Source of the DNA: Panorpa germanica
Lineage: Eukaryota; Arthropoda; Insecta; Mecoptera; Panorpidae
DNA: 64,000 nt
NCBI GenBank assembly: GCA_963678705.1
Contig: OY783212.1
Span: forward strand, 4,774,001-4,838,000
Direction: 5' to 3'
The position numbers and the translations under genes are program-made. Shown here one piece after another: positions 21,303 through 62,899 of this stretch. The notes under the pieces were generated by a model. The model was given only the letters and a program-made list of their open reading frames with translations. It made no database searches and was not told the DNA's origin. Each line of letters opens with the position of its first letter. The first letter of the stretch is position 1.

Positions 21303-21330
21303 TCCGGTAATATTAGACAAGTTGTTTTTT

Positions 21331-31559: not shown

Positions 31560-32281
31560 ATGACACGACGAATTAATGTATTTGGTGCCTGTATTGTTAG
31601 TTCTTTATGTGCGATATTATTTTATGCGAATCTCAAATACAGTAATACAAATTATAAAGGTCCACAAGCTCCAAAATATGTTAAAGTTATATTTTCTACT
31701 GCAAGTAGTATAACCTCAAAACCAGAAGAGGAAAAAGTTATAATTAAAGAAGACATTTATAGAAATTATACTATCGAATATGATATTATAGATATTGAAC
31801 GAGAAAAAATTGCTCAAGAAATGATAACATTTCAAGAAAAAACTGGAAAAGTGTTGACAGAATTAACATTAGAAACAAATGGGGCCCCTATTCGTAGTGT
31901 TATTATCACAACATGGAGGAGTGGTTCTACATTTCTTGGTGATGTTTTAAATGCAATGCCGGGAAATTATTATCATTATGAACCTTTATTAAATTATGAT
32001 ATAATACAAATACGTGGTCCCCCTTATGCTACGGGTGCTATTAATAACATAAAAAAACTTTTAAAATGTGATTATAGTGATATGGATGATTATTTGGAAT
32101 ATGGTCAAACCCATAATTGGTTATTTACGCATAATACTAGGCTTTGGGAAGCATGTGGCGGCGGCTCTCTGTGTTGGAAACCGAAATTTCTTGATGGTTT
32201 CTGTAAAATATTTCCTCTACAAAGTATGAAAATAGTCAGGCTACGGCTGGATTTAGCTGCTCAACTTCTTCAAGATGAATC
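31560..32281 (+). CDS. Carbohydrate sulfotransferase locus, alternative first exon 1A
   Basis: This exon encodes 240 residues plus two bases of a serine codon. Residues 6-24 form a type II signal anchor. Residues 25-110 are a long stem with an acidic, possibly helical IEREKIAQEMITFQEKTGKV. The 5'-phosphosulfate-binding (5'-PSB) motif TTWRSGSTFLGDVL lies at 117-130, and a YHYEPL motif follows at 138-143. The exon ends at GAATC|GTAAGT in phase 2, which joins in frame to the common exon at 54795. The joined protein has 413 aa and carries the 3'-PB motif IRDPRGTMQSR at 250-260. From family knowledge this is a Golgi Gal/GlcNAc/GalNAc 6-O-sulfotransferase (CHST1-7 type) using PAPS. Its stem is about 75 residues longer than those of the other four first exons. 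The intron to 54795 would be about 22.5 kb. Confidence 0.85.
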
Positions 32282-33067
32282 GTAAGTTTAATTTCATATT
32301 ATTATTTGAACTATTAATTATGTAATATTTATAACTTATAGTTAACGAATCCATTTATTCGTAAATATTAACTTAAGCTAAAACTAATATTACATTATCA
32401 ATACACTAGTTATGAATTAATAGATAACCTTTATCTAACTTTGTTATCGGCCGCTGGTTTAAGATGCTTAAACAGATTATTAGGTTAATACTTTACTAAC
32501 TTTTTATTAACATAACTCTTTTTTTGAGAATTCTATGGTTGATTATGTACTTAATTAATATTTTATGATGCGTAACATTGTTTTCTTTGGACTAAATTGT
32601 GAACTTATGTAGCTAGATCATCGCATATTTCTACATCCTTTGATTCTTTCAGTAAGTACTTTAGTGCAGGGTTGCATAATAACTTCTGGTAGAAGTTTGC
32701 TTTCATGAATATAACGCTCAGATATAAAATCTAAAATTTTCAATGAAAATTTACGCACGATCATTCAAAACTCTTCCTGCCTCCGTCTTTCTGCGTAACA
32801 CATTTCTGCCTTAAAAATGCGTTAAATGAATTGTATTTGTATATTGTAGAAGCAGTTCATAATTTTGGTTTATATTAATTGTTGATAAGTTATTTTTGTT
32901 GAATACATATTTCATTAATATATTGTCCTTGACATTTTGGGTTCTTTTTACGACTGGACACGAATATAAATGATTGTTGCATTCGTGAATCCTTGAAATT
33001 AATTATAATCATATACTTAGTTTCTTATGATATGATACGTCAAATGAGTGATTAATTTGTGTTTTAA

Positions 33068-34081
33068 GGGGTTACATGGGTTTCGTGAGGTAAAAAAAGG
33101 CCTATTTTCAATATTTTTTTTTCTATGTAAAAAATTATTTATTTAATTCAAACTTTTTTCTGTCTTATAGATACATATTTAAAGAATAATTTCTGAAATT
33201 TTCAAAAAAAAAAAATTAAAACTCCTCTATTGTGACGTCATTTCCGGTGACGCCTCGAAAAAAAGGTGCTTCCGCGTTGTCAGCATAACTCCTGACAGGA
33301 TTATCTAAACTGAAAAAACAAAAATAAGTGTTTTAGGTAAGACCATAAACTCGTGCTTAACAGAAGGAAAGAAAAAAAAAGTAAAAATTGGAGTTTTGGC
33401 AGACATTTTTCCAAAAAAATGAAAATTTCGGTAAATTTGCTTGATATTTTGTTTTTTTTAAAATAGTTGCAATTGAAAAAAAAAAAAATCCTTCCGTTAA
33501 GCACGAGTAAATTGTATCTCAAACACCTGTGTAAAATTTCATCAAGATCGGTTGAGTAGTTTTCGAGAAAATTTGACAACCGACTTTGAAAACACGGTTC
33601 CCAGAAAAACGCGTTTAAACTTTTTAATAACAATAAAACTGACTTGGAGCGCACACCTTCCAAAGGCTGTATCTCCGAAACTATTATTCGGATCGACTTG
33701 AAAATTTAGTATAATATTCTTGATTTTTTTTTTTTTTTATTTAATTTATTTAACGTCGGCCTATTTCCGATGCTGAGTCCTATCACCGACGACCTCCTAC
33801 AATGTTGGCAGTATTTATGGTGTCGTGGCCTCATATATGTGGGCTACACCACTGCCTTTATATTGTACGATTATGTTTGACCATAATCAATATAAGTTCA
33901 TAATAACCAAACCCAGAAAATATATATCTGGTCCGGGGATCGAACCCGAAGACACAGCAGTCGGCGTCAAGCATCAATGCTCTCGCCCACTGTGTCGTCT
34001 AATATTCTTGAGATGTTGTAGAAATTAATAAGCCAAAAAAAAAAAAAAAAAATTTTGAACACACGAAACCCATGTAACCCC
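33068..34081. mobile_element. TTAA-flanked non-autonomous DNA transposon (piggyBac-like MITE)
   Basis: The terminal inverted repeats are GGGGTTACATGGGTTTCGTG at 33068 and its exact complement CACGAAACCCATGTAACCCC ending at 34081. Both ends abut TTAA (33064-33067 and 34082-34085), the target duplication typical of piggyBac-type elements. No transposase is present; the 120-codon open frame on the minus strand is chance coding. The near-perfect termini suggest a fairly young copy. A complete SINE sits inside it at 33724-33999, so the MITE is older than that SINE insertion. Confidence 0.85.
33724..33999 (-). mobile_element. Complete tRNA-derived SINE with 12-bp target duplication
   Basis: The copy is flanked by the direct repeat TAATATTCTTGA at 33712-33723 and 34000-34011. 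Read on the minus strand it starts GACGACACAGTGGGCGAGAG (A-box region), then GGGTTCGATCCCCGGACC (B box), then a body with GGTTTGGTTATT, GGCCACGACACC and AGGAGGTCGTCGGTGATAGG, and an A-rich tail. At least six fragmentary relatives lie in this window. It gives the family consensus used for the other calls. Confidence 0.9.
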
Positions 34082-35460
34082 TTAAATGAACCGATACCAT
34101 TTATAATCAAAATATATTTTTAAAATAAAAACAAAAGTAATATTTTGTTCTACGCTTTAACAACTCATTTCATAACATTAACAATAGGACATTGTAGTTA
34201 GAGGTCGTCATCGAACAAAAATTGTGTGCAATGAAATAAATAAAATATTTTAACAATCGCTGAAAAAATATTTAGTTTTACGATATAATGCTTTTAAAAT
34301 TATAACCTTTTTTATCATATACATGTTGTTACGAATGTTGAAAATGTCTTTATTTGGACGAGCGGTTTCAAATTATCTTTACAGCAATTTTTTTTTTATA
34401 TATATATCCGCGAAAATAATATACAAGTTTATCTGTATAAAGTCTAATTTTATTTTTTTAATACCTTCAGATATAAAATTTATAAAACTCGTTTTTCTAT
34501 AGATCTTGTTGAATCTCAGTTCTATCTAAGAAATCTGAGCAACATCCTTTTCATATTTATGACTGTACTTTTCATCTCAATATATATACACTAAAATCAT
34601 GGCTCTCACAAATTGAAGACTGACTGGACTTCTAGTCGATAGTTACACTGTATACAATGCAATCTGTGATAAACTTACACTTGCTTAAATCAACATTTGT
34701 GAAATAAAATATTTGGAATATGTTTCATTCAAATCAATTATATTTCTTTTTTATTTTTTTTAAAGGGAACGTTTTTTTCGATATAAGCTTAATAATTGAT
34801 CTCTAAAAGAATCGGGAATAAATATAATGTCTTCTATTCTCTAGTTCCACTATCAATATAATTTATTTTCATTCCTTTAATTACACAGTATAAAATTGAA
34901 TTGAATCAGTTTTACATTTACCAAATAGAAAAACAAACTAATTTTCTTTCCCTATAAACAATATTGACCCAAATATTGGCCTTGATTTTTATACGCCCCT
35001 ATATGGCACGAGGGCTAGCTACATTAAATATTCAAAAGCCATTACCGCACTGCAAGTTTTATACGAGTATGTTTTTCGGATTGTATCTAATCTCTTTGTT
35101 ATTGACCTATTAATTCCCAAAGCACGCAATACCGTACTTTATTTTGATTTAATAATTCATATTTTATTGCCTCTATAACAATCTTTCTTAACCTATGAAA
35201 ACGAGGTTGGTTTTTGTTCTATACCTACTTTCGCATTGAGAATGTTTTTAACTTTTGCAAGAGTTGTTTCATCATTTTTGCTGTTATTTTATGTTAATCA
35301 TTCAAATATTAGGTTTTAGGACTGTAAGGTCTGTTTTAAATACGAGTATTATTTCACTATTCTTTCTATGAGAAATTAAATACATAGTTCGTCACAATAA
35401 TTCAATAAAATTTGTAGAATATCAACAAATTCATTGTATATCCTTGTTTACGACTTGTTT

Positions 35461-35640
35461 ATTTATTTCATTTAACATCGCCCCATTTCTATCACCGACG
35501 ACTTCCTACTATATTGTCAGTATTAAGGTGTCGTGGCCTTATATATGTGAACTACACTGCTACCTAAGAAGTTTACGATTATGTATATACATAATCAATT
35601 TAACTTGATAACAAGCAAATCCAAAAAATATAACTCATCT
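35461..35640 (-). mobile_element. SINE fragment (3' part)
   Basis: It matches the 3' half of the SINE at 33724: ACCGACGACTTCCTACTAT, GGTGTCGTGGCCTTATATATG and ACGATTATG...AACAAGCAAATCCA. The tRNA head is missing or degraded. Confidence 0.6.
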
Positions 35641-36170
35641 TATGTTATTTCAGCAAGACCCGGTAATTTTCTGTCTCGTGCGGACACGAATAACGACAGA
35701 ATCTTCATACAGTTTTGCACTGAGTATGTTCTCTCTCACGCGCTAGGCGATGTATACATGAGCAGCTACGTGCGTTGTGGAGAGCAGGGAATATTTTTTC
35801 GAGCAATGCTGTAGTTTTAAATTGTTTTTTTATCAAAATTTTAAACGCCAAATATAATCATGAGTTTATTGCGCGACGGTGTAGAAAATTATGCCAATAT
35901 TAATTCAGTCATTTGTTATAACACTTATTTTAAAACAGCTGTGGAATCATTTGTGAAGAGGAGCAGGTACTTTCATTTTGTAGTAGCAAATGTAATTTTA
36001 GTTTGTTATTTTGTTCGTGAATTCTAATTTCCTGTACGTTTACCCTCTTCAAACAACCTAATAATTTCGCGATAAATTTCCATTGTTGGTTGCTAGCTGT
36101 CGTCTGTTACACAATTGAGTGAAGTTTGAATAATCATGGTCTGAGTGCGGATACAACATGATATGATACT

Positions 36171-36196
36171 CCATCCCCCATCCCCCATCCCCCTTA
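36171..36196. repeat. CATCCCC microsatellite
   Basis: About three and a half units of CATCCCC, a rare C-rich stretch in this AT-rich intron. Confidence 0.7.
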
Positions 36197-36939
36197 CTCT
36201 TCATTTATTGTTAATAGTTGGGACAACGGAACTCAGAGATGTACTGTATTGATAACTTGTACTAATATTATTTTATATCTAGCTGTACAAGCTGTGCTAC
36301 CAACTTACGCAAAAAAAAAAATAGCGCGGGATTTTTAAATAGACCAGAAATTTGTGATATTGTTCAAGTTTGAATTTCATTTTACCGCTTAATTGTCAGT
36401 CATATTTTTGATGTATAAGTAAACGATTTTGTTTGTCGTATCATATTCTATATAATAATAAAAAAATGATTATAGATTGCTGAAACAGCTATAAGCGCTG
36501 TGACGTTTAATTCTCTATCTCTTTTACACTCTGTTACGGGAGAAGAGAATAGGGAAGTTTGAATTTTTTTGTGCATTTTTGTTCCATTAATTATTTATAA
36601 TCTCAAGCGGAACGGGGAAACTTAGAATTATCGCGGATTTCGATATTGCTGAGGTTTTATTTGTCTAGGTGGTGACTTCACACTAAGATAATAATTGTAC
36701 ACTCACTGCAATTACAGAAATTAGACTTTAGTGAATTACAAAATGCTGTCACTGTAATAACATAACACTTGATTCTTAAATTTTATGTAAATGTGTAATA
36801 ATTTTGTAAAGAAATTAAGTCCATCTTTTAAAGAAATCTGAAAATGTAAAAATAACATGACAGAGATAGGCAAATTCAAGGGAAATGGAAGTAATTCTAT
36901 TTATCAAGGAATTCGATATATTGGGGTTGCAGTAATCTT

Positions 36940-37060
36940 TAATAACTTCAATAAAATTGCGAATTAGATAAAAATAATTGGATATTAGAGTTTCCGAGAG
37001 CCAATTTTATCAACATACGAGTACAGAATAGTTTTATATAAATTCAGTTATGATTCACAA
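36940..37060 (-). repeat. Dispersed AT-rich repeat, copy 4 (family R1)
   Basis: AAAATAATTGGATATTAGAG followed by GCCAATTTTATCAA and TTTATATAAATTCAG matches the reverse-orientation R1 order. The copy is degenerate. Confidence 0.45.
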
Positions 37061-37757
37061 CCCACTTGTTATAATTTCGCAATATTATCATCGGACGTCT
37101 GGTGTATCTTATTCAATATAATTACAATTACTTTTACAATTAGTACGAGCAGTATTCTAAGACACTTTATTTAACCGCAAGAGACAGACAGACAGCAAAA
37201 CTGGTCTTCGGCGATATTTACAGTTAATCGTACCTCTTAAGAAGTATTTCTTGTGTATTCTTCATGTTTAATAGAATGTTCGGAATGATATAAAAATAAT
37301 ATAAAGAAATTACCGTTTTACTGAGATACTTGCTTAATTAAATTGGTTCTGTGTGTAACAGATGTTCAATTCAAATTTAACTTTTTTGTTTATTTTATAC
37401 GTAAGTACTACCTAAATTTGCAATAATAGAGAAAAATTATAAATAATGTAACAATAAATTTATTACTCTTTTTTTAATTTCCTATTGGAATAAATTTTAA
37501 TATATTCATATTGGCGTTTTTATTTTTTGAAATAACCAAAAGTGGAAGGAGTTATATCAAATTTGAATTTCACTTTTGCCGCATGTTATAGATATGCATA
37601 ATACGTCACAGAAGAAATAAGTAATCGGGATATGAACTTCATGGAATGCACAACGCACCTATTATATACAAGTATGCGCCTCTCTTATATACAAGATATA
37701 GCATATAATCGGATGTGACGTACCATGCATTGGAATTTTCTATAACGCATTAATAAT

Positions 37758-37890
37758 TACAGAGACAAAATGACTTTTTTAATTGTTAATATCTCCTAAA
37801 ATATAAAGAGTTATTAAAAAATAATTGGACATTTGAAGTTGTGGTGGCCAACTTTATCAATATATAGTTCTGCTTTATAGAAATTAAGAC
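37758..37890 (-). repeat. Dispersed AT-rich repeat, copy 5 (family R1)
   Basis: This is almost the full reverse complement of the copy at 7258-7390. It carries GAGACAAAATGACTTTTTTA, then TTAATATCTCCTAA, AAAATAATTGGACATTTGA and AACTTTATCAATATATAGT in that order. Confidence 0.7.
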
Positions 37891-38014
37891 ATGGTTCACA
37901 AGTCCATTGATATTTAGAGATGTTATCATTTTGTATTTGATTTCCGAATCAGCGCTAAATTTTCAGGGTTTGAATATTGTTTTGTTCAATTAATTATTTA
38001 CAAATTTAATGTAA

Positions 38015-39559: not shown

Positions 39560-39705
39560 AATGTATCGTACACACTGGTACGACATAAACATGCGACATT
39601 TAACACTTATATATTTTCATTCAAAAGTTGATATTATTTAGACATGAGTGTACTAAATGTGTTGTACTTATAACGTACAGACTAGTGCGAAATAATATTG
39701 ATATT
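39560..39705 (+). repeat. Dispersed repeat R2, copy 1
   Basis: TACACACTGGTACGACATAA, CATTTAACACTTATATATTT and TTAGACATGAGTGTACTAAA all recur in order at 46888-47015. The unit begins and ends with related direct words (GTACACACTGGTACGACAT and GTACAGACTAGTGCGAAAT), as if built by an internal duplication. Confidence 0.65.
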
Positions 39706-41118
39706 ATTATTTTACAGAAATCAATGTAACATAAAAATCTACATATTTCCCTATTTACGAATATAAGTATACGTTAGACTTGTATATTTACCTTCCTCAG
39801 TAAAACCAAATCTACTGATAAAACAGTTTAGGACTCTAGGCCAATCACTTGGCGTTCTAAACCAAACTGTGATTCGTAAATAGAACAAAACAATAGATCA
39901 ATATGTTTTAATAGGTTATTTATTCATATCCATTTGCATGTACATTCTTGTATAAATATAATCAAGCAAGGAACTTGTTAGCTATAGTTGTTCAACTAGT
40001 CGTGTCCATTTATTTTTAAATATAGAGAAGACGGTATGTATAGTATGTTAGCTAGAATGTTTTTCAAAAAGTCACAGAATATTTGTAAAGAGTACTTAAG
40101 CCGGTTCCAGACGATGCGGTGAACGTGTGAGTCAAATATTAAAGTTTGACCTGGCAAGTTTCTTACTACACGGTGAAACGAATGTTTGATTGGAATGATT
40201 TATTTACATTATTAATTTGTTGATATTATTGACACTGGCACTGTTAAACAAAAACTTTCAAGTAAATAAATAAACTTTCGACTATAAAACCTTTAATTGT
40301 TGGAAGATGTCGTGGGGGTAGAAAAATCTCTTTTGACGCGGGTTAAAACAACAGCCCAAACTTCTACCAACAATCCAACAGCGTGGTATAGTATAGTTAC
40401 ATTTAATATTGTCAGAAATTCAAAACCTCTGACCACGAATACCACACATACGTGACGAAATTAAACAAAATATTTGATATTTCAAATTATTATATATCGA
40501 ATTCTAAACGCCGAAATGCTTTTTTAAATTTTATCAACAGTTTGTAGTTTATTATAGAAGATAATTTGTGTATAATAGAATAAGATATATTTGTGTATTT
40601 ATTGATAGATAATATAAATGTATTTATTGCACGTGTCATCATTAAAGTTTTATAAACTTTAAATGAACCTTGTTCTAAAATGTGGCATTAAAATACAACA
40701 AGGAATGCACAAGCAATCAATTTCAATAGAATGAAACAATAGACGCATTCCTAATAACAAATTAACTTAAAAACATTGGGAAGATAACATTTATTGTAAT
40801 AACGAAAAAGTTTATTAAATACTATGTTTACTAAGCCTAAGAATGTGGTTTGAAGAATTTGTTGGTTAGGGATAATCCAGTAGTAGACGATGGTATTGTC
40901 AACTTCCCTTAGCAAGCATACTACTTCTCAAACGCGGAAATTTAACCTGCACAGCTTCTGTGTCTGCTATTGAATATATATTTAAGTAACAAAATACTGA
41001 TGACATTTAATGTAGGAATAGGAATTTCAACATCATTGTTGTAATAATTCTTTCTATATTGTTTTATTCTTAGAAATAAAAACTATAAGTTTCCTGATAC
41101 TTGATAAATCTTAAGTCG

Positions 41119-41152
41119 TTCAGTCTTGAGTTACTGTCAGTTAAGTTCAGTG
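41119..41152 (+). promoter_or_regulatory. Triple TCAGT initiator cluster upstream of first exon 1B
   Basis: TTCAGTC, GTCAGTT and TTCAGTG occur within about 35 bp, about 80-110 bp before the ATG. The same three words, with nearly the same spacing, precede exon 1C (43459-43492). TCAGT is the arthropod initiator consensus. No clear TATA box is seen. Confidence 0.5.
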
Positions 41153-41229
41153 TATTGTATGTTAGCTCATTATTTAATTAATTAATAGTAAACTTTATGG
41201 TAATTGATGTGTGATTTTAAAAGTGGTCA

Positions 41230-41789
41230 ATGTCAAATAGTGTTCAAATGTTTCTAATGGCGCTGTGGATGATAATTATCTTCAATTTGGTTTTGTGTGT
41301 AGTACTAACGCAAGTAAAATCATCTGAAAAGTATCACCCAAGTTATTGCAAGGTGGTATTTGTGCCGAATTATGATCATTTAGAAATAACCGACGCACCA
41401 ATTCGAAGTCTGGTCGTTGCGGGCTGGAGAACTGGATCAACATTTCTTGGCCAAATTCTCAATGCAGTGCCTGGCAATTTCTACCATTACGAACCGTTAA
41501 CATACATCGGTTTTAAACGATTTTACCCACGAACATTTAAAGCTGAAATTGTTGTTTGCTTGTTAATAAAACGATTCACATGCATGTACTATTATGACGA
41601 TGATTATAATTATGTCGACTATAAATGGGAGCATACTCAAAACACTAGATTATGGCGCAAATGTTTAACACACTCACGTTGCAGAGATCCTGCATTGCTT
41701 AGAAGAGTCTGCAAAAATTCACCTACGCAGAGCATGAAAATTCTTAGAGCTCCATTAACGATCGTTGGACAAATCCTTTACGAGCCCTC
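41230..41789 (+). CDS. Carbohydrate sulfotransferase locus, alternative first exon 1B
   Basis: The exon encodes about 181-187 residues. The upstream ATG at 41230 is not conserved in exon 1C (ATG there reads ATA), so ATG at 41248 (MFLMALW...) is the safer start. A hydrophobic anchor (MFLMALWMIIIFNLVLCVVL) is followed by a short stem, then the 5'-PSB motif GWRTGSTFLGQIL, YHYEPL and a Tyr/Asp-rich YYYDDDYNYVDY loop. The exon ends CCCTC|GTAAGT in the same phase as 1A, giving 353-359 aa when joined to 54795. The first threonine of the usual TWR is glycine here. Exon 1C is a close copy, with 16 differences in 181 residues. Confidence 0.85.
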
Positions 41790-42229
41790 GTAAGTTTATT
41801 TTTAGTTTTTATTTATATTTAAACTCTATTTAAGGGTTTTAACAATTAGTTAGCTGTTTTCACGATATCATAATTTTATTACCGGCGACAACTGACAATC
41901 TAGAGAAGAAAGAGTACTGCGTTTAGATGGCCGAAGGTTTGGATTCGATTCCTGGAGATGGAATACATTTATTTTATTACTGGCAAAGAAATACCTCACA
42001 AAATGATAATCATTGCTAACCCCCCCTACATTCTATCACCAGCGTACAACTAATACAACAGCCTCGAATTAAACCTGGATAAAAAATTCAAACCAATCAA
42101 TTTCAATTCATTATACGGGAAAAATCAATTGTCGAACATTTTAAAATACTCGTACATATTATAATGCAACGCATTACTTGGTACGTCGGTACTCACTTTC
42201 TCGTTGTGTTCTAAATTTGTCAGAAAGAA

Positions 42230-42350: not shown

Positions 42351-43458
42351 GGACAATCATTTTTATGGTGGAGATGTTAGTAATAACTGCATCATCCCTA
42401 TTAATGATAGACGGGCAGTATTGTGCCCATCATTTGATGGTTTGCCCAGTTAAGACCCTTCAGTGTTTTGATTTACATCGCAGTTGGGATCTCAATAAAA
42501 TAGCCCGGTTGTGTCTAATTGGGGTCACAAAAGAATTTCTATTAAAGAAATTCACATTTATACACCTAAGAATATCGCAGAAAGTGAATAGTAAGATGGA
42601 CTATTTTGCTATATTCCAAGTCTTGACCAAAAGACGTTCAAAAGTCAATAACGGGGACCTTTATAACGTCATCGGAATTGTTGGTCATCTAATTTCAAAT
42701 GATATAATAATTTCGCTGATTAATTTTTTTTATTATCAAGTCAATTAATGAGGGGCCGTCGATTAGTTATATAAGACGTAAAGAGGGTCCTCATGATTTG
42801 ACAAATGGAAGTAGGAGGTTATGGTTTCATAATATCTGAAATAAAAAAAGAAAGCAGAACACCAAATGAGTGACTTCACAACCAGAGGGTCCACAATGTA
42901 TGACAAACCGGGACAGGTGAATTGGAAGGGCCGGTAATCAACCATAGCATTTTCCTGACAAGGTATTTCGGATTATAGATGGTACCTATTATAAGAAAAG
43001 TCATCGTTGTTCCGAGCCTCGCATTTTCAGTGTGGTGCTGGCTTTACCATTCGACATCGCAGCATAAAATTCGATAGAATTGTAAAAATTATCATGAAAT
43101 ATGTGTAGGAATGTATTGAAGTACAAATGTTAGAATTTTCCTGTCTGCATTGTTAAGTTCTTGAAAATAGTAACTATAAACTACTTAGGGTATACTCGTT
43201 CGATATGATTTTGTTCCATTAGACTGTTCTGCTATAATTTCCATGAGCCTTCTATTTATTGAGTAACTTGTTGTGGAAGTGTTGGTTCATTGTTTAATTG
43301 ATATAAAGTGATTAATAAATACTTATTAAAGGTTATGACATTTAATGTAGGAATCTAAAAACTCAATATTAATATTTCTAAAAACCAATTGTAATATTTT
43401 TTTCTACATTCTTCGAAATAAAAACTATAAGTTGAGACACTTAATAAATCTTAAGTCG

Positions 43459-43492
43459 TTCAGTCTGGAGTTACTGCCAGTTAAGTTCAGTG
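43459..43492 (+). promoter_or_regulatory. Triple TCAGT initiator cluster upstream of first exon 1C
   Basis: This is the duplicate of the cluster before exon 1B (GTTCAGTCTGGAG, TGCCAGTTAAG, TTCAGTG). The middle word has drifted to CCAGT. About 240 bp of upstream sequence is shared between 1B and 1C, so the promoter was copied along with the exon. Confidence 0.5.
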
Positions 43493-43577
43493 TAGCTCAT
43501 TATTTAATTAATTAGAAGTAAACTTTATGGTAATTGATGTGTGATTTTAAAAGTGGTGAATATCAAATAGTGTTCAA

Positions 43578-44119
43578 ATGTTTCTAATGGCGCTGTGGAT
43601 GATAATTGTCTCCAATTTAGTTTTGTGTGTAGTACTAACGCAAGTAAAATCAACTGGAAAGTATCACCCAAGTTATTGCAAGGTGGTATTTGTGCCGAAT
43701 TATGATCATCCAGAAATAACCGACGCACCAATTCGAAGTCTGGTCGTTGCGAGCTGGAGAACTGGATCAACATTTCTTGGCGAACTTCTCAACGCAGTGC
43801 CTGGCAATTTCTACCATTATGAACCATTAACATACATTGGTATTAAAAAATTTTACCCACGAACATTTAAAGCTGAAATTGTTGTTTGCTTGTTAATAAA
43901 ACGTTTCACATGCATGTACTATTATGACGATGATTATAATTATGTCGACTATAAATGGGAGCATACTCAAAATACTAGATTATGGAGCAAGTGTTTAACA
44001 CTCTCACGTTGCAGAGATCCTGCATTGCTTAGAAGTGTCTGCAATAATTCACCAACGCAGAGCATGAAAACTGTTAGAGCGCCATTAACGATCGTTGGAC
44101 AAATCCTTTACGAGCCTTC
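43578..44119 (+). CDS. Carbohydrate sulfotransferase locus, alternative first exon 1C
   Basis: The exon encodes 180 residues plus two bases. It has the hydrophobic anchor MFLMALWMIIVSNLVLCVVL, the 5'-PSB motif SWRTGSTFLGELL, YHYEPL, YYYDDDYNYVDY and a C-terminal TQSMKTVRAPLTIVGQILYE. It ends CCTTC|GTAAGA, the only donor of the five with A instead of T at the last position. Joined to the common exons it yields 353 aa. It is the sister of 1B (about 91% identical). Several changes (R/S three times, K/N) remove basic residues relative to 1B. Confidence 0.85.
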
Positions 44120-44546
44120 GTAAGATTTTTCTTTAACACTTTGATAGCCATTTTCACGATATAGTGTATTTATTGCCGACGAAAACTAACAATCTAGAAG
44201 AGAAATGTGTTGCTTTAGGTGCTGGAAGGTTTGGGTTCCATTAGTGGCAAAATTAAACAAAGACAGTCGCTATAGAAATAACAAATCTACAAAATTATTG
44301 CACAATTATTATCTTTTCTAATACAGTTAATGTAAAATATAACATAGCTGTTGAAATCGCAGTAATATATTAATAAAGAGGAGCGTGGTCCTAGGAAGTC
44401 CGGTAAATTATTAATAATAAAAAATAGATTAATAGAAAACTCTCAATTTTATTTCTTTTTCAACCATTTGAAATTTGAATGACTTTGTAGGTCTATATAT
44501 CTTTTTTCGCCATAGTTAGGCAGTTCGTGGTGTTAACCTCATATTC

Positions 44547-44790
44547 GACGATACAGTGAGCGTGAGCATTGATGCTTGATACTGACTGCTGTCTTCGGCC
44601 TCAATCCTCGGTCCAGAGTTATATTTTCTGGGTTTGGTTGTTATTCAGTTAAATTGATTATATACATTTTTTAATCATAAACTTATTAGGCAGCATTATT
44701 ATATAAATATATAGGGCCACGACATCATAAAAACTGCCAACATTGTAGGAGGTCGTCGATGATAGGTAACATAAATTAGATAAATAAAAC
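44547..44790 (+). mobile_element. tRNA-derived SINE, nearly full length
   Basis: Plus-strand copy from GACGATACAGTGAGCGTGAG through a degraded B box (GCCTCAATCCTCGG), GTTATATTTTCTGGGTTTGG, AATTGATTATATACA, GGGCCACGACATCATAAAA and GTAGGAGGTCGTCGATGATA to an AATAAAAC tail. Possible flanking repeat words CCTCATATT and CCTCAAGATT. It lies between first exons 1C and 1D. Confidence 0.8.
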
Positions 44791-44880
44791 GCCTCAAGAT
44801 TAAAACTAATTATTTTTTTTTTTTTTTAACAACAATTGACCGGGCCTCCTGGGACCACAATAAATAATTAGTTTTAAAAG

Positions 44881-45036: not shown

Positions 45037-45084
45037 TAACACTACTCAATCTTACACATTTTGTTCATCAGAAAATAAGCGATG

Positions 45085-46308
45085 TAATTTTGTTGTTATT
45101 TGGAATGCATCTATTGTTTGATTCTATTGAAATTGATTCCTTGTGTTAATGTCCCGTGCAAAGCCTCATTTTACGACGAGGTTAGTTTAGAGATTAACAG
45201 TTTAGGGATGGCACGTTCAATTAATTCATTTATATTTTTAATATATCCTATTCTATTCTTCTCATGTTTAAAAGGGGTGAATTTAGGAAATCCTCCAGTG
45301 CAAAGTGTAGTTGTCGCTACATGGCGAACGGGTTCTTCATTTTTGGGTGAAGTGCTAACCTCTGTGGAAGGAAGTTATTATCATCCGGAACCTTTAGATA
45401 AATTTGGCTATAAACAAATTCGTGGGTTTCCTTTTGCTGATTTATCTTTACATATTATTACAAAGTTGTTAAAATGTGATTATAGTGGTTTACATTCGTA
45501 TATTGAATATATGTTTCGTGTAAAATGGATGATAACATGTAACAAGAAACTTTGGAAAAGGTGTGGAAATCGCTATAAATGTTACACCCCTACACGTTTG
45601 AGTAACATCTGTAAAACATTTCCTTATCAAACTATGAAGCTGGTTAGACTGCGATTAGCTTTAGCTGGCGAACTTCTTTTGGACTCATCGTAAGTCATGT
45701 TATTACATAATAGGGTCTAGCTATTTTTTAATCGATTTCAAACACTCGAAAATATTTTAAATTATAATTATTTTATTTTATAATAAAAACCCTACATGAT
45801 TCTTTAATTATAAGGAAAGGCTTGTATTTGTTCGCAAATGTAATAAAAAATAAAATCGATAAAAGATCGAATTTTTTTTTTGGGGCTAGTGTCTTTTTTA
45901 TATAAAAACTAAAAAAGAATCGAAAAATCGATTTTTGAGAAATAGATCTTCTTTAGGCTTTGATTCGAATCGATTTTTTTTAAGATCTTTTTTAAGAAGA
46001 ATCGCAATTTCTATTGCACATTCAATTCAATTTATTTTATATTTTATTTAAATTTGCTTAAATACGATTGCAATGTGCGACAATCGTTAATTTTAATTGC
46101 TATCCTTTTTTCACCATTTTTTTAATTTTGTTAATTGCTGTAATCTTCCATATAATTATGCTCGTATATTCGTACCTGTCTCTGAATCACGCAATGCTAT
46201 TTCTTCGAAATACGAGTAACCTAATATTGTTATATCATGCAAATTCATTATTTAATAAAAGTAATAAAATGCCAAAAATACGAAGTTATCCAAATCTTTA
46301 TAACTGTG
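45085..46308 (+). repeat. Segmental duplication unit containing exon 1D
   Basis: This block is repeated at about 49490-50620. The match starts near TTGTTGTTATTTGGAATGCA, covers the whole exon and runs several hundred bp into the intron, to about CCAAATCTTTATAACTG. The intronic part carries several small gaps, while the last 43 codons of the exon are identical in protein. Confidence 0.8.
45208..45689 (+). CDS. Carbohydrate sulfotransferase locus, alternative first exon 1D
   Basis: ATG at 45208 gives MARSINSFIFLIYPILFFSC, a compact signal anchor like those of the other first exons, and matches an identical ATG in 1E. An in-frame ATG at 45100 would add 36 residues; it is not conserved in 1E and is disfavoured. 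The 5'-PSB motif is TWRTGSSFLGEVL, very close to the CHST consensus. HPEPL replaces YHYEPL, followed by KLLKCDYSGLHSYI. The exon ends TCATC|GTAAGT in the shared phase, giving 333 aa once joined to 54795. Confidence 0.85.
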
Positions 46309-49300
46309 TCTTTATAGCAGTGAGTAAATTTCATTTTTCTTTTAAATTTAGTTTTATATGAATTATTAAATTTTATTATTAATTTTATGTCTTGTAAAAA
46401 TGTCTTGTACTAGTTCATTAATATTAGTGTTATTGTCATAAAGTACGTCAGTAATGTCGTCTAGTTGTATACGTTTATTGCATTGTAATAGCAAGTGAAT
46501 TTTCAATTTTGTTTATATGAACTACATCTCTCCCACTTAGCACTCACGACGCCTGTAACTGTTACTTTTTTTCGTAGCTCAGTAATTCTCATGTCAACGT
46601 TTCATTTCTCAGCTAAAAGTTTTTTTTATAACCTTGAAAAATATTTTTTCTATTTGCATAAATTCCTTCTGGCCAGTGACCACGCTTATGCTACATCATA
46701 AAAGCATTTCGTGCAACGTCATCATTCTAGTAGTTGTACCAGCGCGTTCAACTCGATAACATCTGGATCTAATATATTCACTTTTTATTTATGTTTATTA
46801 TAAAATAATATTTAAATTTAAAGTTTTATAATCGTTATGTAAAGTAACGGTTATAAATGATGAACCAATGCCTCATGACTTAATGATATGTATGGTACAC
46901 ACTGGTGCGACATCCAACATTTATATATTTTCATTCATAAGTTGACATTATTTAGACATGAGTGTACTAAATGTGTTGTACTTTTAACGTACATACTAGA
47001 ACGACATAAACATATTTTATGAAACAAAAATGTTTCAATCCCAAGTCGGAACTTTTGAAGGAATTACGGTTTTGAAAGTGATCTTGACTCAGTATCCAGT
47101 ATAAACTCAGTGTGCGTTGACGTTTTTTTTAGTTGTGTTTAGTAAATAAACACAAATAATTGAAAATGGTGTTTTAATAGACAAATTAAATAGACCTGAA
47201 CATAGACCCTTGATAAACAGTGTTCGACACAATACTTTTATAAAGTAATTTTTATTATATAATTGGTTTACTTATTGTGCGCTTGTAATTCTTTCAATCG
47301 GTTGTAAACGATCGATTCAAATTACTCAAAAACATATCACGTCTTTCATTATAAGTAGAAAGACATGCAAAATGTAATTTGTCTTTCTCTCTCTCTCTCT
47401 AGCATGTCTTGATTTATAGCGCTAATATTTTATGTTTACTACGACTTTCAGATAAATCTCTTCTTCAATGCACAGAGAGCTTAACGACGTGTCTGACTCA
47501 AAAATAAAGTACTATGCTTTAATGGGAAACTTAAGGCTCAAACTGTTATTTTGACTTGCTATTTGAGCGCATATAATATAACTGACAGTAGATAGTAGAT
47601 AGTATCAACCACCATTAAAATCAGCTCATATAATTAACGACTTTTCGACTTTTCTAAGCTTTCAAAAAATTTGAGAAAATTCTGGATTACTTCTTGAAGT
47701 GTCTACTACATGGTCCAGAAGTTTCCAAAGTCCAAAGTTTAAAACCGTGGTAATAAAATTTGACAAATAGTAAAAAACGCAAAAAACGGAATATTCTTAA
47801 AAAATTCGTAATTTTATAACATACAAATATTAAGGAAAACGGTTGAAGACTTTTTTATCTTAGGCTATAAACTTTCAAAAGAATGTAATGTCTTTGGGGT
47901 GGCCTCCAAAAAGTATTTGAAGTAGAATTATTTGTGCACATGGAAGTGGGGAATATTTTACGGATAAACAAAATTTATAAAATAATAATTAATAATAGTT
48001 AATAATAATTATTGTCAAAAAGAGAATTTATGGCGCGCAACTGGGGCAGAAGTGGCTACAATGATTATCTCAAATCGGTACAACGCACGATACACAAGAA
48101 TATATTGTTTTTCTATTTTCCTTCCAAGTGCAAAGAAATCATCGTTGTCGCTTTTCTAGTTTCCCCGTTAAATGGTCACCCATCTTCAAAAACTTATTGT
48201 AGTAAAAAGAACTAATAAAAAAAATCTATATATATAATTTAAGAAATAATATATTAAATTATATAAAACATTTATTTTACCCATGAACCATTTACTGACC
48301 CTTTTAGGGAACAGATTCTGTTAGGGAACTTTTGGCTAACGTAATGTACTAAGGAACTAGTGGGTCGTTTCAGTATCTATTTTTCTTATTCACCTATCTC
48401 TGTCTTACCTGTGTACATGAAACAATACTATAGAGAAAATTTGCACAAGTAGAACGGGCTGTCTCTTAGTTTTATACCAGGATTTATTAAAGTAAACTTT
48501 CGGAATATATATAGAAATAAGTTGCCTACTAAAGTTATTATAAGGAATTAAATGATATAAAATCACACATGCGGCAAACTTGTAGTAATCAAGTTTTACA
48601 GGTTTGAAACACTGTTCAAGAAAATCATATAAAAACAAAGTAAAATAAAGAAACTTTCATATAGAAATAAAATAATGATAACATTACTCAATATACAACT
48701 TGATTGAATGGAAATACCACAACATATGAACAGCGTAGTTTACTATTCTAACTTTTGAAAATGATGTTGTATTCAAGATAAAACAGCTCGCGGCTGTAAT
48801 CAAATTGTATTGGATATTGTCCGACCTGACTTGCTGTTGCCTAAATGTTCAAGTTTGATATCAGAATAATTTATTATGCGAACACTAATCGTTATCGAAT
48901 TTGCAACATAATAAAATTTACATGTGTTGTAATTTGTACGGAACTGTACCGAGACTGTTTATTAGGAAACACGTGTTCAGCAGTTTGTGACAATCGGTTT
49001 TTTGTTTGACGAAAATCCAAATGTTATACATTTTTAGAATTATAGATTAAGGCCTGTCGCACACTGCAAGTAAACGAATTTTAACCAAGCGAAACCTATC
49101 CGAACTTTGTAAATGCAATCAGCAATCTCAGACTGGAAGGGAATGCAATAATAGTCTTTCATAACAGTGGTGTATCGATAAAAATTAAAGTAAAAATTTG
49201 CTCTCATGATAACTTATATTAGTGCAAAACAACTCCACCTTACAGTATACAAGTTTGACTTGGCGTACTGTCGTATCGGTACGTGGTATGTACAACACTC

Positions 49301-49450
49301 ACTGCGGCTTCGAGTCCAACCAAAATAAATGCTAAGACATTTTGGGGTGTGTCTAATATAAAAAAGAAATGTACATAAAATATACCGGCTATAGGTCATA
49401 TTATTTAAAGTTTATCTAAAACAAAATATGTTGTCGGTTAAATGAAATTC
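45690..49450. other. Intron between first exons 1D and 1E
   Basis: The first 0.6 kb belongs to the 1D/1E duplication. One R2 repeat lies at 46888-47015. The rest is AT-rich DNA with no supported gene; open frames at 46068-46361 and 46495-46701 are non-coding by the logic given under rejected items. Confidence 0.5.
46888..47015 (+). repeat. Dispersed repeat R2, copy 2
   Basis: It matches the copy at 39560 over TACACACTGGTGCGACAT, ATTTATATATTTTCATTCA, TTAGACATGAGTGTACTAAA and TGTTGTACTT..AACGTAC. It lacks a few bp near the start. Confidence 0.65.
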
Positions 49451-49489
49451 CAATACAATAAATGTTATATCGCTTCAATGTTTTAAAGT

Positions 49490-50620
49490 TATGTTGTTGT
49501 TATTTGGAATGCATCTATTGTTTGATTCTATTGAAATTGATTCCTTGTGTTAATGTCCCGTGTAAAGCCTCATTTTACGACGAGGTTAGTTTAGAGATTA
49601 ACAGTTTAGGGATGGCACGTGCAATTAATTCATTTATATTTTTAATATATCCTATTCTATTCTCCTCACGTTTAAAAGGGGTGAATTTAGGAAATGCTCC
49701 AGTGCAAAGTGTAGTTGTCGCTACATGGCGAACGGGTTCTTCATTTTTGGGTGAAGTGCTAACCTCTGTGGAAGGAAGTTATTATCATCAGGAACCTTTA
49801 CATAAATTTGGCTTTAAACAAATCCGTGGGTTTCCTTTTGCTGATTTATCTTTACATATTATTACAAAGTTGTTAAAATGTGATTATAGTGGTTTGCATT
49901 CGTATATTGCATATATGTTTTATGTAAAACAAGTGATGATAAAATGTAACAACAGACTTTGGAGAAGGTGTGGAAATCGCTATAAATGTTACACCCCTAC
50001 ACGTTTGAGTAACATCTGTAAAACATTTCCTTATCAAACTATGAAGCTGGTTAGACTGCGATTAGCTTTAGCTGGCGAACTTCTTTTGGACTCATCGTAA
50101 GTCATGTTATTGCAAAATAAGGTTTAGCTATTTTTTAATCGATTTTAAACAATGGGATTTTAAACATTGAGTTGGTTCTTTTTTATATAAAAACTAAAAA
50201 AAAATCGAAAATCGATTTTTGAGAAATCGATCTTCTAGACTTTGTTTTCTTTCTGAATCGATTCTTTAGACTTTGATTCGGATCGATTAAAAAATCAATC
50301 TTTTTTAAGAAGAATCGCCATCCCTATTACATATTTAATTCAATTTATTTTATATTTTATTTAAATTTGCTTAAATACAATTGCAATGTGCGACAGTCGC
50401 TAATTTCAATTGCTATCCTTTTTTTAACCATTTTTTTAATTTTGTTAATTACTGTAATCCTAATATAATTATGCTCGTATATTCGTACCTGTCTCTAAAT
50501 CACGCAAAGCTATTTCTTGGAAATACGAGTAATCTAATATTGTTATATCATGCAAATTCATTATTTAATAAAAGTAATAAAATGTCAAAAATACGAAATT
50601 ATCCAAATCTTTATAACTGC
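49490..50620 (+). repeat. Segmental duplication unit containing exon 1E
   Basis: Partner of 45085-46308. The left breakpoint lies just upstream of the shared TTGTTGTTATTTGGAATGCA. The right end fades after CCAAATCTTTATAACTGC. The two copies lie in the same orientation, 4.4 kb apart. Confidence 0.8.
49612..50096 (+). CDS. Carbohydrate sulfotransferase locus, alternative first exon 1E
   Basis: ATG at 49612 gives MARAINSFIFLIYPILFSSR, a weaker anchor than 1D because Arg replaces Cys. The 5'-PSB TWRTGSSFLGEVL is unchanged. Differences from 1D cluster between residues 1-40 and 58-125 (HQEPLHKFG against HPEPLDKFG; a one-residue insertion, VKQVMIKCNNRLW against VKWMITCNKKLW). The last 43 residues are identical. 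It ends TCATC|GTAAGT in the shared phase, giving 334 aa with the common exons. The longer open frame back to 49462 is not conserved. Confidence 0.85.
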
Positions 50621-51727
50621 AATGCAGCGAGTGTTCTTTAACCGTAAATTTAAAAAAAAAAAAAAAAATTATAATTCGGTAAAAATAAACAATAAAATAT
50701 TGGTAAATTAGCTATATTTCGCATAGAGCTGAAAGTTGGTATACACCTTGGGGACATTATTACAAATAAAAGTTTGGCTCTACAATATCTGATAAAGTTA
50801 ACTATCACGATCTCAAATGTGTTTTATTTAAATAGTCATCAAAACAATCATTTAAAGAACCAGGATTATTAATGGGGCAAAACTCTATAAAATGGTAAAG
50901 AAATATTCTTGCCTTGAACCATCAACCTTGGTTAATTATTTTTTAATTTATATTATTTAAATATTTTCGTAAAGTAATAGAAATTTAATATTTTCACTGT
51001 ACGTAGTTCAAGCCAGTGTACCATTTTACCGACTCCGACTCTAGCTCTGTGCAATGTGCAAATAGATTTGTATTTACTGAACTAACTGACTGTGTAACAG
51101 GATATAAATATATGGTGCATTGTACAGTACATGGTAGCATAGTATTGCAAGACGGAAATACGCATATTTTTATGAATGTACTCGTACATCTAACCTCTTT
51201 AACTCATGCTAAACTGAACTAACTGAACTCGTCCGATTCTGGTATGTGTGACCCTCTTTCCGGTTCGAAAGTTGCAGTGGTGTATGCAGAATATCTGCCA
51301 CTAATAATGCGTGTTTATTGAATACTTATAATAAAGCTAACATTTCGGAAGCATAGTAATGGAATTTACTATTAAACTACAATAAAGAAAATTTCAAGCC
51401 GTCGAATAACTTTTTTTTTCACTGTAATTAAATTTAAAGGGCAACATTTTTCTTCATTCAAAACGCAGAATACTGAAGAGAAACTGCACAAAAACGTGCA
51501 ACACTCTTTTTGAAAATGACACGCATATATAGTTCTTAAACTTTGCAATCACTTTTTAATGATTTTTTGAAGACAGTTCAGTGTCCGAGAGCATATATGC
51601 TTGACGTCCTGCATCAGCGCCTAGACCCATTCGTTTTTAAATTCGTCGCCTTTAAATTTGTCTTCCATAGGCACAGGCCTCACAGACATAAGTCTGAATT
51701 CTTCACCGATCAAAATTAATTTCGTTC

Positions 51728-51890
51728 TGTGCTCACAATCATAAATTTTATAAGATAGTGGTGTTGGCACAAATACGAGGCCACGACACCATAAATATTG
51801 CCAATTAAACACCAATTCTCGGACATCATCGATGATAGAACTCAAGATGGGAAATAGATCGACATCCAACGAATTTAAAAAAAATTAAAT
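51728..51890 (+). mobile_element. SINE fragment (3' part)
   Basis: AATCATAAATTTTATAAGAT, GAGGCCACGACACCATAAA and TCGATGATAGAACTCAAGAT match the 3' half of the SINE family, with an A-rich end. The tRNA head is absent. Confidence 0.6.
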
Positions 51891-52671
51891 AATAAACAAT
51901 CCGAGTATATGATGAATTTATTTTATAAAAAAAAACATATTGTTATGATATGCACGTTAATTTTACTGTTATGTTCCTGTGAAAAATAAAATATATCAGA
52001 GTGTTTTTTGAAGTACTCGTACACTTGTTATAAGGACTAAAAAACTCGAGTGATGAAACAAGCTAATTTGTCAAACATGAAACTCAACTGTACGCGGAGT
52101 CAACATGATCCACTTGTTTGTTATGTGAGGCTGTCATTAGTAGGGCTTCCACGACTTTAACTTGAAATAAGGTCAACAAGAGAGAAGCTAACTAGAAATA
52201 TATTGTACTATATTTTAATTCATGGAAATATAAAATAATTCTCAAATAATGAAATCCATCAATCCACCTTTGAAACATTTTAACGGACGACGACGACGCC
52301 CGATACTTTCTTTGTCTTCCGAGTCAAACACCTGAGCCGTGTTATGCATACCAGATGTGCCTTGTAGCAGTACCAGTACAAGCAGATGGTTCAATGTATG
52401 GCAGGCGAAATTATTTTTAGAACTTTTATTTCTATTACAATGTTCGTGTTTATTAAAATCAATATTTTTCGCAATGTTTCAAATCAAAACTATTTGATGG
52501 TTCTACTTTTGACGAGTATATTGGAAAGTAGTGACTATGCTGCTCGCCTCAAATAAGCGGTATGCTTAATTATAGAAACAGTGATAATTATCACAACTTT
52601 AAATACAAGGTTCTATGGATTATATTGTTTTAATGTGTGTTTTACTAAAGGTAATTAAAAACGAAAGTATA

Positions 52672-53430
52672 CAGTGCCGTGCTTAGAGATTTTGTAGCCT
52701 GGGCACAGATAAAAGTCTATTAAGTATTTTCTTAGAAAGAACGCACTCAGGAAATACGATTGTTTAAAGATATTTTTATTAAAAAATAATTAATAGTAAA
52801 TTAAAATAGTAATTTTAGAAAAAAATTCTTTACTTTTTGCTCTATAACTTTTAATTCGTAAAAGATAAAAAGTTGAAATTTGACATGTGTATTACGTTGT
52901 TCTATGCTAACATTTTTTGAAAATTAGAAATGGAAAAATTGGAAAAGGGGGCGTTGAGAAAATTAGGGGGCCCGATAGGAAACTTTGGAGAAAATTCAAA
53001 TTTCGGATTCCTTAATAATGAAATGTGTTAGAAAAAAAAAAATTCAAAAATTTTATTTGGGGGCTAGAAAATTTAAATGTTATATATGGACTAACTTTGG
53101 TACTTACTTTACAAATTGAAAAAAAAAATCCCAAATTTTGAAAAAAAAAGTCAGTTTTTATAAAAAATTATTTGTTATATGTAAAATATATATCACACAA
53201 TCGTCGCTTGCGACGGGGGTAACTCTACTGCGCAATATAATTTTAAAAAATTTGAAATGTTTTAGCACACTTTTAATTTATATACTTATAAAGCAATATA
53301 TAGTCGATATTAGTTCGTAGCTGTCGCTGCATATGCCTTTCCTCCGCTCCACTTCTCTTCCACGTCGGTTCAGCACCAGCGGACCCTGAGCAAATGTCTG
53401 CCTTGTCTAGTAGTAAGCGCGACCCTGGCT
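52672..53430. mobile_element. Possible non-autonomous DNA transposon
   Basis: The left end, CAGTGCCGTGCTTAGAGATT then GTAGCCTGGGCAC, and the right end, AAGCGCGACCCTGGCTGCAG, resemble the CAGTG...CACTG ends with 'CCCTGGGC' words of many hAT-type MITEs. The interior is AT-rich without coding. The ends are diverged and no target duplication was identified. Confidence 0.3.
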
Positions 53431-54042
53431 GCAGTAGTTAATTTGATGTTTTCTTTAATTGAGGGCACTCACCTACCTGCATTACAATTAACGGTATGAC
53501 TGTTGTAATGATGTTAAATTACTGCAATTGCAGTTAAAATACTTGTAACGTCACTAGCATTGTACTTTTATTACTTGACCTTAATAATAACAACAATAAT
53601 AATGGAATATATGCAGTTAGTTACGATGATTAATAAAAACTTGCATAAATCTTCTTTTCAGTTGTTATTCAAGGTCTTCTAGAAGCAATAAAAAGTCTGT
53701 TCATTAGTTACATTCACTGCGCTAAATATTGTTGTTGTAAGTGGTTATCTCAGTTTAAAAGTTGGCGCCGTGCAGAGTGCATGGCGGGGGAATCAAACTG
53801 ATGGCAGCGTATACTGCGGATAAATCCAACATTAACTACGGTTGCTTTGTATCTTAGTGTATTAGAATATCACGTAAACGGCTCATGTAAATTTGTTGAG
53901 TAGTTGTGAATAGGAACATGCAAATTTTTTTAGTGTTTTTTTTTATAACGTATATCAAATAAAGAATACTACTACTTTTCTTTTTCCCTACGATGAAAAA
54001 ATACTAGAAGAAAATGAAGGTGTTAATAAAAAAGTACACAGT

Positions 54043-54179
54043 TGCCTAATAAATTTACGTTTATAATTAATTTAATTTGATAACAACCGACCCAGAATAT
54101 ATAACTCTGGTCCGGGGTTTGAACACGAAGATGCAGCAGTCTGTCGTTAAGTATAAATGCCTCGCCCACTGTGTCGTCT
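54043..54179 (-). mobile_element. SINE fragment (5' head)
   Basis: Minus-strand head of the SINE: GACGACACAGTGGGCGAGGC at the high-coordinate end, a B box degraded to TTCAAACCCCGGACC, then AGAGTTATATATTCTGGGTC. It is truncated about 130 bp in. Confidence 0.65.
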
Positions 54180-54794
54180 AATTACTATTATGAATATTCA
54201 TAAAATCGTAATTTTCATTTGTAAAAATAACACTTTCTTGTTAAAAGCAATTAGCTATTAGTTATCTAACACGGAATGCAGTTAGTTAGTACTTGTCGAT
54301 TTATACCCTGCAGCCGTTGTTTTCTATTGCATCATACTACCTGGTATCTACCAGGGGTGTGCCAGCTTTTGTTAACAATAAAGTTAAAAGTAAATAGTTC
54401 CATATAGTCAGTCCTATATATCTTTAATCCTTAAAAGGGTGTTTTATTGCATTTTTCTATTGATTTAAAATAATCGCTCTTGTTGAATCATAACGATATG
54501 TATTTCTGGCGGGAGTGTGCGTCTCCAAAGTTAAAAAAGTAATTTAGAAATAATATTTCTTAGAAATAGGTTTAACTTTTACAATCATTTGATTTAAAGA
54601 CAAAATATATATGGTAATTATATATAAATAAAAGGTTGTACTTCTCTGTAAAATCAAAATAACCTTATAATTATACTTTTTAACAACTAATAAACATTGT
54701 GATAAAAGTAAAATATAATTTTCAATCATTAAAAAGGAACAATGTATTTGTATGTACTTATTATTTTGTGCTTATTTTTTTATTTTTATTGCAG

Positions 54795-54974
54795 GTTAAA
54801 TGTAAAAATCGTTCTTCTAATAAGAGATCCTCGGGGGACAATGCAGTCCCGAAGGCACCGAGATTGGTGCCCTGGGAATCCAGATTGCGGTCTCGCTAAA
54901 AATCTGTGCTCGGACATGGTAGCTGATTACCATGCGGCAAAGAAACTGCAAAAACAATTTCCAGATAGATTTAG
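54795..54974 (+). CDS. Carbohydrate sulfotransferase locus, common exon 2
   Basis: A 180-nt exon behind TTTTTATTGCAG. The first base completes the serine codon begun by each first exon (TC|G). It encodes LNVKIVLLIRDPRGTMQSRR, the PAPS 3'-phosphate-binding (3'-PB) motif of carbohydrate sulfotransferases, here IRDPRGTMQSR against LVRDPRA..RSR in vertebrate CHSTs. It continues with a Cys-rich WCPGNPDCGLAKNLCSDM and DYHAAKKLQKQFPDRF. It ends TTTAG|GTAAAA. No other copy of this exon is visible in the window, so all five first exons must use it or be dead. Confidence 0.88.
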
Positions 54975-55066
54975 GTAAAAATAAATATGTGGCTTTATAA
55001 AATATTTTCAAAAATGTAATTATTTTCCAAACTTTTTTTATTTATATACTTATTTTTTCTTTGCAG

Positions 55067-55406
55067 GGCAATTAGATACGAGGATTTTTCAATGGATACA
55101 GACGAAGGCGTAAATTATCTTTTTGATTTTTATGGTCTTCCTGTAACGGAACAAGTGAAGAAATTTTTAAAATCTCATACTAAAAATGATAAAGGTGGTG
55201 TAAGTTCTACATATAGAAATTCAAAGCAAGCGCCGTTTCATTGGCGTCAAGATTTATCTTACGATGACGTACTAGGCATTCAAGAAGATTGTATGGAGGC
55301 CCTTAAACTATGGGATTATAATATATTAACAGATGCATCACAATTAAGATCCAGTGAATGGAATCCTATCTCAAATTACTCAATAACTAGAGCCACTTAC
55401 TTGTAA
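55067..55406 (+). CDS. Carbohydrate sulfotransferase locus, common terminal exon 3
   Basis: The acceptor TTTCTTTGCAG joins AG|G to give RAIRYEDFSMDTDEGVNYLF, the 'RYEDL' block typical of the sulfotransferase fold. It continues through YGLPVTEQVKKFLKSHT and APFHWRQDLSYDDVLGIQED, ending SNYSITRATYL and TAA. N-glycosylation sequon NYS lies near the end. The exon gives all isoforms the same 113-residue C-terminus. The nearest AATAAA is around 55944. Confidence 0.88.
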
Positions 55407-62875: not shown

Positions 62876-62899
62876 CGTGGTCAATTGATATTGTAATTA

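Follow-up and report, generated by a model that had tools for sequence, protein, structure and literature searches.

How many enzymes can a single sulfotransferase locus encode when only the front half of the gene appears to have been multiplied? This question is raised by a 64 kb stretch of the genome of Panorpa germanica (contig OY783212.1, positions 4,774,001 to 4,838,000), referred to here as the window, in which five homologous first exons lie in tandem on the + strand, all in the same phase, upstream of one pair of downstream exons. An initial annotation, made from the letters of this DNA, read the arrangement as one gene with variable first exons and a constant 3′ half. To the reading of this genomic evidence as alternative first exons with a common downstream pair we give a probability of roughly 0.8. 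The window contains no N, and all coordinates below are positions within it.

Layout of the locus and proposed mode of expression

The exons of the locus are as follows.

31560..32281, + strand: variable first exon 1A, 240 codons plus 2 bases, with a putative anchor at residues 5-23, a stem, and the 5′-phosphosulfate-binding (5′-PSB)-like motif TWRSGSTF.
41230..41789, + strand: variable first exon 1B, with in-frame ATGs at 41230 and 41248 and the PSB-like motif GWRTGSTF.
43578..44119, + strand: variable first exon 1C, about 91% identical to 1B in amino acids, with the PSB-like motif SWRTGSTF.
45208..45689, + strand: variable first exon 1D, with the PSB-like motif TWRTGSSF and a short, weak anchor.
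49612..50096, + strand: variable first exon 1E, about 91% identical to 1D in amino acids, with one in-frame codon insertion and an extra in-frame ATG at 49462.
54795..54974, + strand: constant exon 2, with the 3′-phosphate-binding (3′-PB)-like motif LLIRDPRGTMQSR, preceded by a T-rich tract and a GCAG acceptor and followed by a GTAAAA donor.
55067..55406, + strand: constant exon 3, with the C-terminus and the stop codon; the first AATAAA lies 538 bases past the stop.

The boundaries given in the initial annotation proved exact, and all five first exons do end, as it had noted, at the same codon and in the same phase, TC|GTAAG in phase 2. The heptamer TCGTAAG occurs seven times on the + strand of the window, and five of these occurrences are the first-exon ends. 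Each first exon is an open reading frame (ORF) of 160-240 codons that begins with ATG and has an in-frame stop upstream. The five joins to exons 2 and 3 are open, in frame and free of internal stops, again in agreement with the annotation, and remain so in six of six cases when both starts of 1B are counted. The joined products would have 413 (1A), 353 (1B), 353 (1C), 333 (1D) and 334 (1E) residues, or 359 for 1B if read from the ATG at 41230. Since this upstream ATG of 1B is ATA in 1C (43560), translation of 1C from an ATG would begin at the second site, 43578.

We propose that the locus is one gene with alternative promoters, in which each of the five tandem first exons would have its own transcript start. 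The first exon would provide the start codon, an N-terminal anchor or signal, the 5′-PSB loop and the N-terminal half of the catalytic domain, and its TC|GTAAG donor would be spliced, past any intervening first exons, to the single acceptor at 54795, which would add the 3′-PB motif and the C-terminus. The predicted products are Golgi carbohydrate sulfotransferases in which the front half, with localisation, stem and part of the acceptor site, would be variable and the back half constant, so that they might differ in the acceptors they use.

Coding character of the first exons

The first exons fall into three divergent classes, namely 1A, 1B/1C and 1D/1E, of which the latter two are recent duplicate pairs. 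Between classes the identity is 33-50% (tblastn, E 3e-40 to 8e-23), while within each pair it is about 91% for the protein and 95-96% for the exon DNA. A profile built from the five exons matches exactly those five among the 2869 six-frame segments of at least 15 residues in the window, the next match being at E 0.77; this search of the window thus gave no sixth first exon. Of the alignment columns, 39 are invariant; five of them belong to the PSB-like loop (W, R, G, S and F) and four are cysteines. Third codon positions are the most different in all eight between-class pairs, which are not independent of one another (Fisher p 7e-5 to 0.024). At equal base composition, the chance of an open frame is 9e-10 for 1A, 5e-6 for 1B and 6e-6 for 1D. 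From these comparisons the three classes appear convincingly to be coding. That the first exons are chance ORFs was considered and is ruled out, because they are homologous by both tblastn and profile. An AlphaFold2 model computed on the first-exon alignment was uninformative (mean predicted local distance difference test score 35.1, predicted template modelling score 0.29).

A membrane anchor had been assigned to every first exon. The maximum Kyte-Doolittle hydropathy over 19 residues of the N-terminus is 2.04 in 1A, 2.86 in 1B, 2.66 in 1C, 1.85 in 1D and 1.38 in 1E. The assignment therefore stands for 1A and 1B/1C, in which the hydrophobic N-terminal stretch is clear, and is doubtful for 1D/1E, in which it is short and weakly hydrophobic. 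The N-terminus of the latter pair might be a signal peptide or a weak anchor.

Sulfotransferase identity of the joined halves

The motif scan used definitions that we take to describe the PSB and PB patterns. In the six frames of the window the PSB-like pattern is present in all five first exons and the only PB-like pattern lies in exon 2, with neither found elsewhere, which bears out the division of motifs between first exons and exon 2 described earlier. The joined models all match the family PF00685 (Sulfotransfer_1) in one stretch that crosses the junction and covers profile positions 3/4-254 of 255, with scores of 44.4-52.3 bits (E 6.8e-14 to 1.8e-11) against a cut-off of 22 bits. The constant half alone scores 41.1 bits, from profile position 90 onward. 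None of the five first halves matches PF00685 when taken alone; their best score is 13.9 bits, on PF13469 (Sulfotransfer_3), and two of the five give nothing. A search of PDB sequences with the 1A model gave no match at E up to 0.1. One scan of viral contigs returned a pattern match in a single stretch and confirmed no relative there.

One pair of downstream exons in the window

The proposal requires that the 3′ half be present once. By tblastn, exons 2 and 3 are each found once in the window. The next matches to exon 2, at E 0.69 and 0.85, fall at 4.5-5.1 kb, on the upstream side of the whole first-exon array; for exon 3 there is no further match in the window at E up to 1. Nor was a second 3′ exon found by phmmer --max against the 2869 six-frame segments or by the PB-like pattern in six frames. 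The case that the initial annotation had named as fatal to its model, separate 3′ exons following each first exon, was thus looked for by three methods and not found in the gap-free window. At the DNA level, blastn of 54701-55450 against the window gave a 52-base match at 53240-53289 (76.9%, E 0.001), the only further match below E 0.04 among the matches listed. As a candidate second constant exon it was rejected: it corresponds to the AT-rich intron that separates exons 2 and 3, covers no exon, and is read as low complexity.

As a control, the same tblastn search recovers three copies of each of the two terminal exons of a nearby symporter-like gene, at 54-100% identity. Judged from these copy numbers, the symporter-like family seems to have grown by duplication of whole genes and the sulfotransferase locus by duplication of first exons only.

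Duplicated blocks and divergence of the copies

The two recent pairs lie in duplicated blocks, and a further, inverted copy is recognisable.

41000..41950, + strand: block carrying 1B and its upstream region, 85% identical to 43335-44242.
43335..44242, + strand: block carrying 1C, the copy of the 1B block.
45084..46306, + strand: block carrying 1D, with its copy at 49488-50619; most of 45745-45891 is without counterpart.
49488..50619, + strand: block carrying 1E, the copy of the 1D block.
40611..40798, - strand: inverted relic of a class-D first exon, comprising its upstream region and opening codons, 76% identical to 49454-49640.

In both pairs the blocks begin ahead of the start codon and reach into the intron. 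Close similarity of this kind might point to an artefact of assembly, in which tandem genes were collapsed or misjoined with loss of their 3′ exons, or in which haplotypes were placed side by side as 1B/1C and 1D/1E. The 95-96% identity of exon DNA within the pairs would suit this explanation, and repetitive DNA is close by, in the form of satellite-like repeats that start at about 58.5 kb and continue to the end of the window. However, the window has no N; the homology of each pair stops after about 1-1.2 kb, beyond which identity is 35-55%, unlike haplotypes; and the three classes are too diverged, with several independent losses of 3′ exons needed. We regard an artefact as very improbable.

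The alternative-first-exon reading gains from the way in which the 1B and 1C blocks have diverged. In stretches picked after the alignments were viewed, 1B and 1C differ at 30 of 560 exon sites (no gaps), at 28 of 123 intron sites and at 20 of 88 far-upstream sites, and the exon is less diverged than the intron with p 2.6e-8. The proximal upstream region differs at 9 of 130 sites (p 6e-4 against the intron). For this pair the rate of nonsynonymous change per site (dN) is 0.042 and that of synonymous change (dS) 0.108. Neutral simulations without stops, in which all changes were placed on one copy and the base composition was approximate, gave more nonsynonymous codons than the 16 observed (P 0.015-0.042). 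On these counts, the 1B/1C exons are conserved against their flanks.

The 1D and 1E copies are separated by 18 differences over 482 exon sites, 2 over 120 upstream sites and 38 over the 468 intron sites that could be aligned, with about 150 bases of 1D intron that lack a counterpart left out (exon p 0.005 and upstream p 0.008, both against the intron). The 120-130 bp immediately upstream are thus conserved within both duplicate pairs, and such stretches fit a promoter that would have moved along with each exon.

The distribution of amino acid differences also varies between the pairs. Eight of the 15 differences between 1D and 1E fall inside one 20-residue stretch (permutation p 0.0024, for a width chosen post hoc), at 45505-45558 and 49909-49965, which includes one in-frame codon insertion; in 1B/1C a stretch of 20 residues holds at most 4 of 16 (p 0.94). 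Either gene conversion of the remaining exon or diversifying selection within the stretch would explain the 1D/1E cluster. One could go further and imagine a system of combinatorial glycan sulfation, in which the sulfate-donor site would be built from a variable and a constant exon, the variable half would diversify fast on its acceptor side, the 1D/1E stretch would be a hypervariable acceptor loop, and the promoters would give each acceptor specificity a tissue of its own. This extension is speculative, and we hold it to be rather unlikely.

Weighing the alternative-first-exon reading

Several observations weigh against the proposal. In unspliced RNA a stop codon stands right at the junction (TCG TAA), and AATAAA follows every first exon, 93 to 1351 bases on, although this motif is common in the AT-rich DNA here. 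The intron of 1A would span 22.5 kb and pass over four exons. Joining the halves adds just 3-11 bits to the PF00685 score, a gain that is positive in five of five models and modest, because the first halves alone score below the cut-off; and PF13469 is covered from front to back in a single stretch by one joined model in five (1B). As to divergence, the post hoc choice of the compared stretches belongs on this side of the balance. The dS of 0.11 between 1B and 1C is half of the intron divergence of 0.23, which is compatible with gene conversion too. In 1D/1E, 14 nonsynonymous codons stand against 2 synonymous ones, as expected under neutrality (P of at most the observed number, 0.51-0.66); this count gives no indication that the protein of this pair is under purifying selection, and gene conversion, not selection, could have lowered the divergence of its exons.

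The stop at the junction makes each first exon a closed ORF as well, and the first exons might accordingly be separate short genes that end at the TAA within the donor and encode PSB-only half-proteins. Every first-exon ORF does end there, with its first AATAAA at the distances just given. However, this TAA arises automatically when a phase-2 GTAAG donor follows TC, and the GTAAG is retained in five of five exons. Moreover, a sulfotransferase half without the 3′-PB motif should not bind the sulfate donor. We give separate short genes next to no weight.

The neutral pattern of 1D/1E bears on another possibility, that the constant exons are served by a single first exon or a small subset (for example 1E and 1A) and that the rest are relics of tandem duplicates without their 3′ halves. 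Birth and death are evident at the locus, in the two recent duplicate pairs and in the decayed or truncated inverted copy, and the signal of selection at the protein level is absent in 1D/1E. In addition, the neutral probability of acquiring no stop is 0.11-0.30 for the recent pairs, so the openness of the recent copies is by itself weak evidence. Against this, all three divergent classes are open, retain the PSB loop and the four cysteines and show the third-position excess; the same donor in the same phase is kept in each class; and in 1B/1C the conservation of the exons against their flanks (p 2.6e-8) is joined by nonsynonymous changes below the neutral number (P 0.015-0.042). We therefore judge the view of most first exons as relics to be unlikely.

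Alternative first exons with a common pair remain the preferred reading. It is less sure that all five first exons are in use, mainly because of 1D/1E. Thus, the variable-first-exon model of the initial annotation best fits the genome, whereas its further suggestion that one locus could make five enzymes is less secure, given the 14 against 2 codons of that pair.

Little of the exon can be made out in the inverted class-D copy, which was picked up by DNA similarity and by one 12-residue tblastn match (E 8.5): beyond 40611-40798 the remainder is unrecognisable save for short matches. The five open copies are all oriented so that they could reach the constant exons, and the relic faces away from them. 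Decay of an unusable copy fits this arrangement; truncation during copying fits as well.

Relation to known systems

With the Golgi carbohydrate 6-O-sulfotransferases of the CHST1-7 type the locus shares PF00685 and an N-terminal hydrophobic stretch, and its PSB-like WRTGSSF and PB-like RDPRG motifs presumably resemble those of that type. Human members of this type generally carry the catalytic domain within a single exon, whereas in the present locus the domain is divided and its front half multiplied.

The comparison with the vertebrate UGT1A locus, which was drawn in the initial annotation, is a fair analogy. In UGT1A a variable first exon likewise encodes the N-terminal half and constant exons the C-terminal half, and evolution is by birth and death (PMC1885805); the common exons number four (PMC9209448). 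UGT1A differs in that its donor site is in the C-terminal domain, while here the site for 3′-phosphoadenosine 5′-phosphosulfate would be split across both halves, and the enzyme families are unrelated. Vertebrate GCNT2, the I-branching beta-1,6-N-acetylglucosaminyltransferase, is closer: up to three similar variable first exons, each of which has its own promoter and encodes a transmembrane segment close to the N-terminus, precede two constant exons (PMC1885805). Tandem similar first exons, two constant exons, a role in glycan modification and a copy number that shifts by duplication are features in common; unlike the present locus, GCNT2 encodes a glycosyltransferase with known mRNA, and its organisation is termed vertebrate-specific in that source (PMC1885805).

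Among arthropods, tandem arrays with mutually exclusive N-terminal exons occur in insect gustatory and odorant receptor loci, which encode receptors and not enzymes (PMC6720082, PMC8956072). In beetles, DponGr38a-d combines one unique N-terminal exon with two shared C-terminal exons, and TcasGr214 encodes 30 variants (PMC6720082). Evidence of the kind used here is also what annotators rely on to infer such splicing (PMC8956072).

The organisation itself is not new, because it is known from GCNT2 and from beetle chemoreceptor genes. Among the papers listed in an open-access library with no preprints and few subscription papers, none describes such a locus for a carbohydrate sulfotransferase, judging by titles and the openings of abstracts, and on the sequence evidence the present case is well supported as a new occurrence of a known layout. 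Should transcripts bear this out, the carbohydrate sulfotransferases would stand beside UGT1A and GCNT2 among the glycan or conjugation enzymes whose forms are multiplied through duplication of first exons only. The products would then also offer natural chimeras with which to ask whether the front or the back half of such an enzyme determines its acceptor and its place in the Golgi. Gene-finding pipelines might call such a locus one gene plus fragments, and similar loci may have been overlooked.

Other features of the window

Head-to-head with the sulfotransferase locus, three tandem sodium:solute symporter-like genes (PF00474) occupy 13586-30075 on the - strand, with N-terminal exons near 30015, 25284 and 17102 and C-terminal exons near 26184, 21573 and 13867. 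Farther upstream, at 9572-12958 on the + strand, two tandem sets of similar ORFs were recognised by eye. Four of these ORFs were tested: the two of the first set match no family, and the two of the second match the Group 7 allergen family (PF16984), one at and one below the cut-off.

At the other end, 58490-64000 is, from a search of 28001-60000 against the window, dense in direct and inverted repeats and satellite-like; its G+C is down to 24-27%. Within the introns of the locus, dispersed short repeats lie in both orientations at 33716-34005, 35455-35636, 44541-44766, 51734-51900 and 54059-54182, with 71-83% identity; this family is likely a small mobile element.

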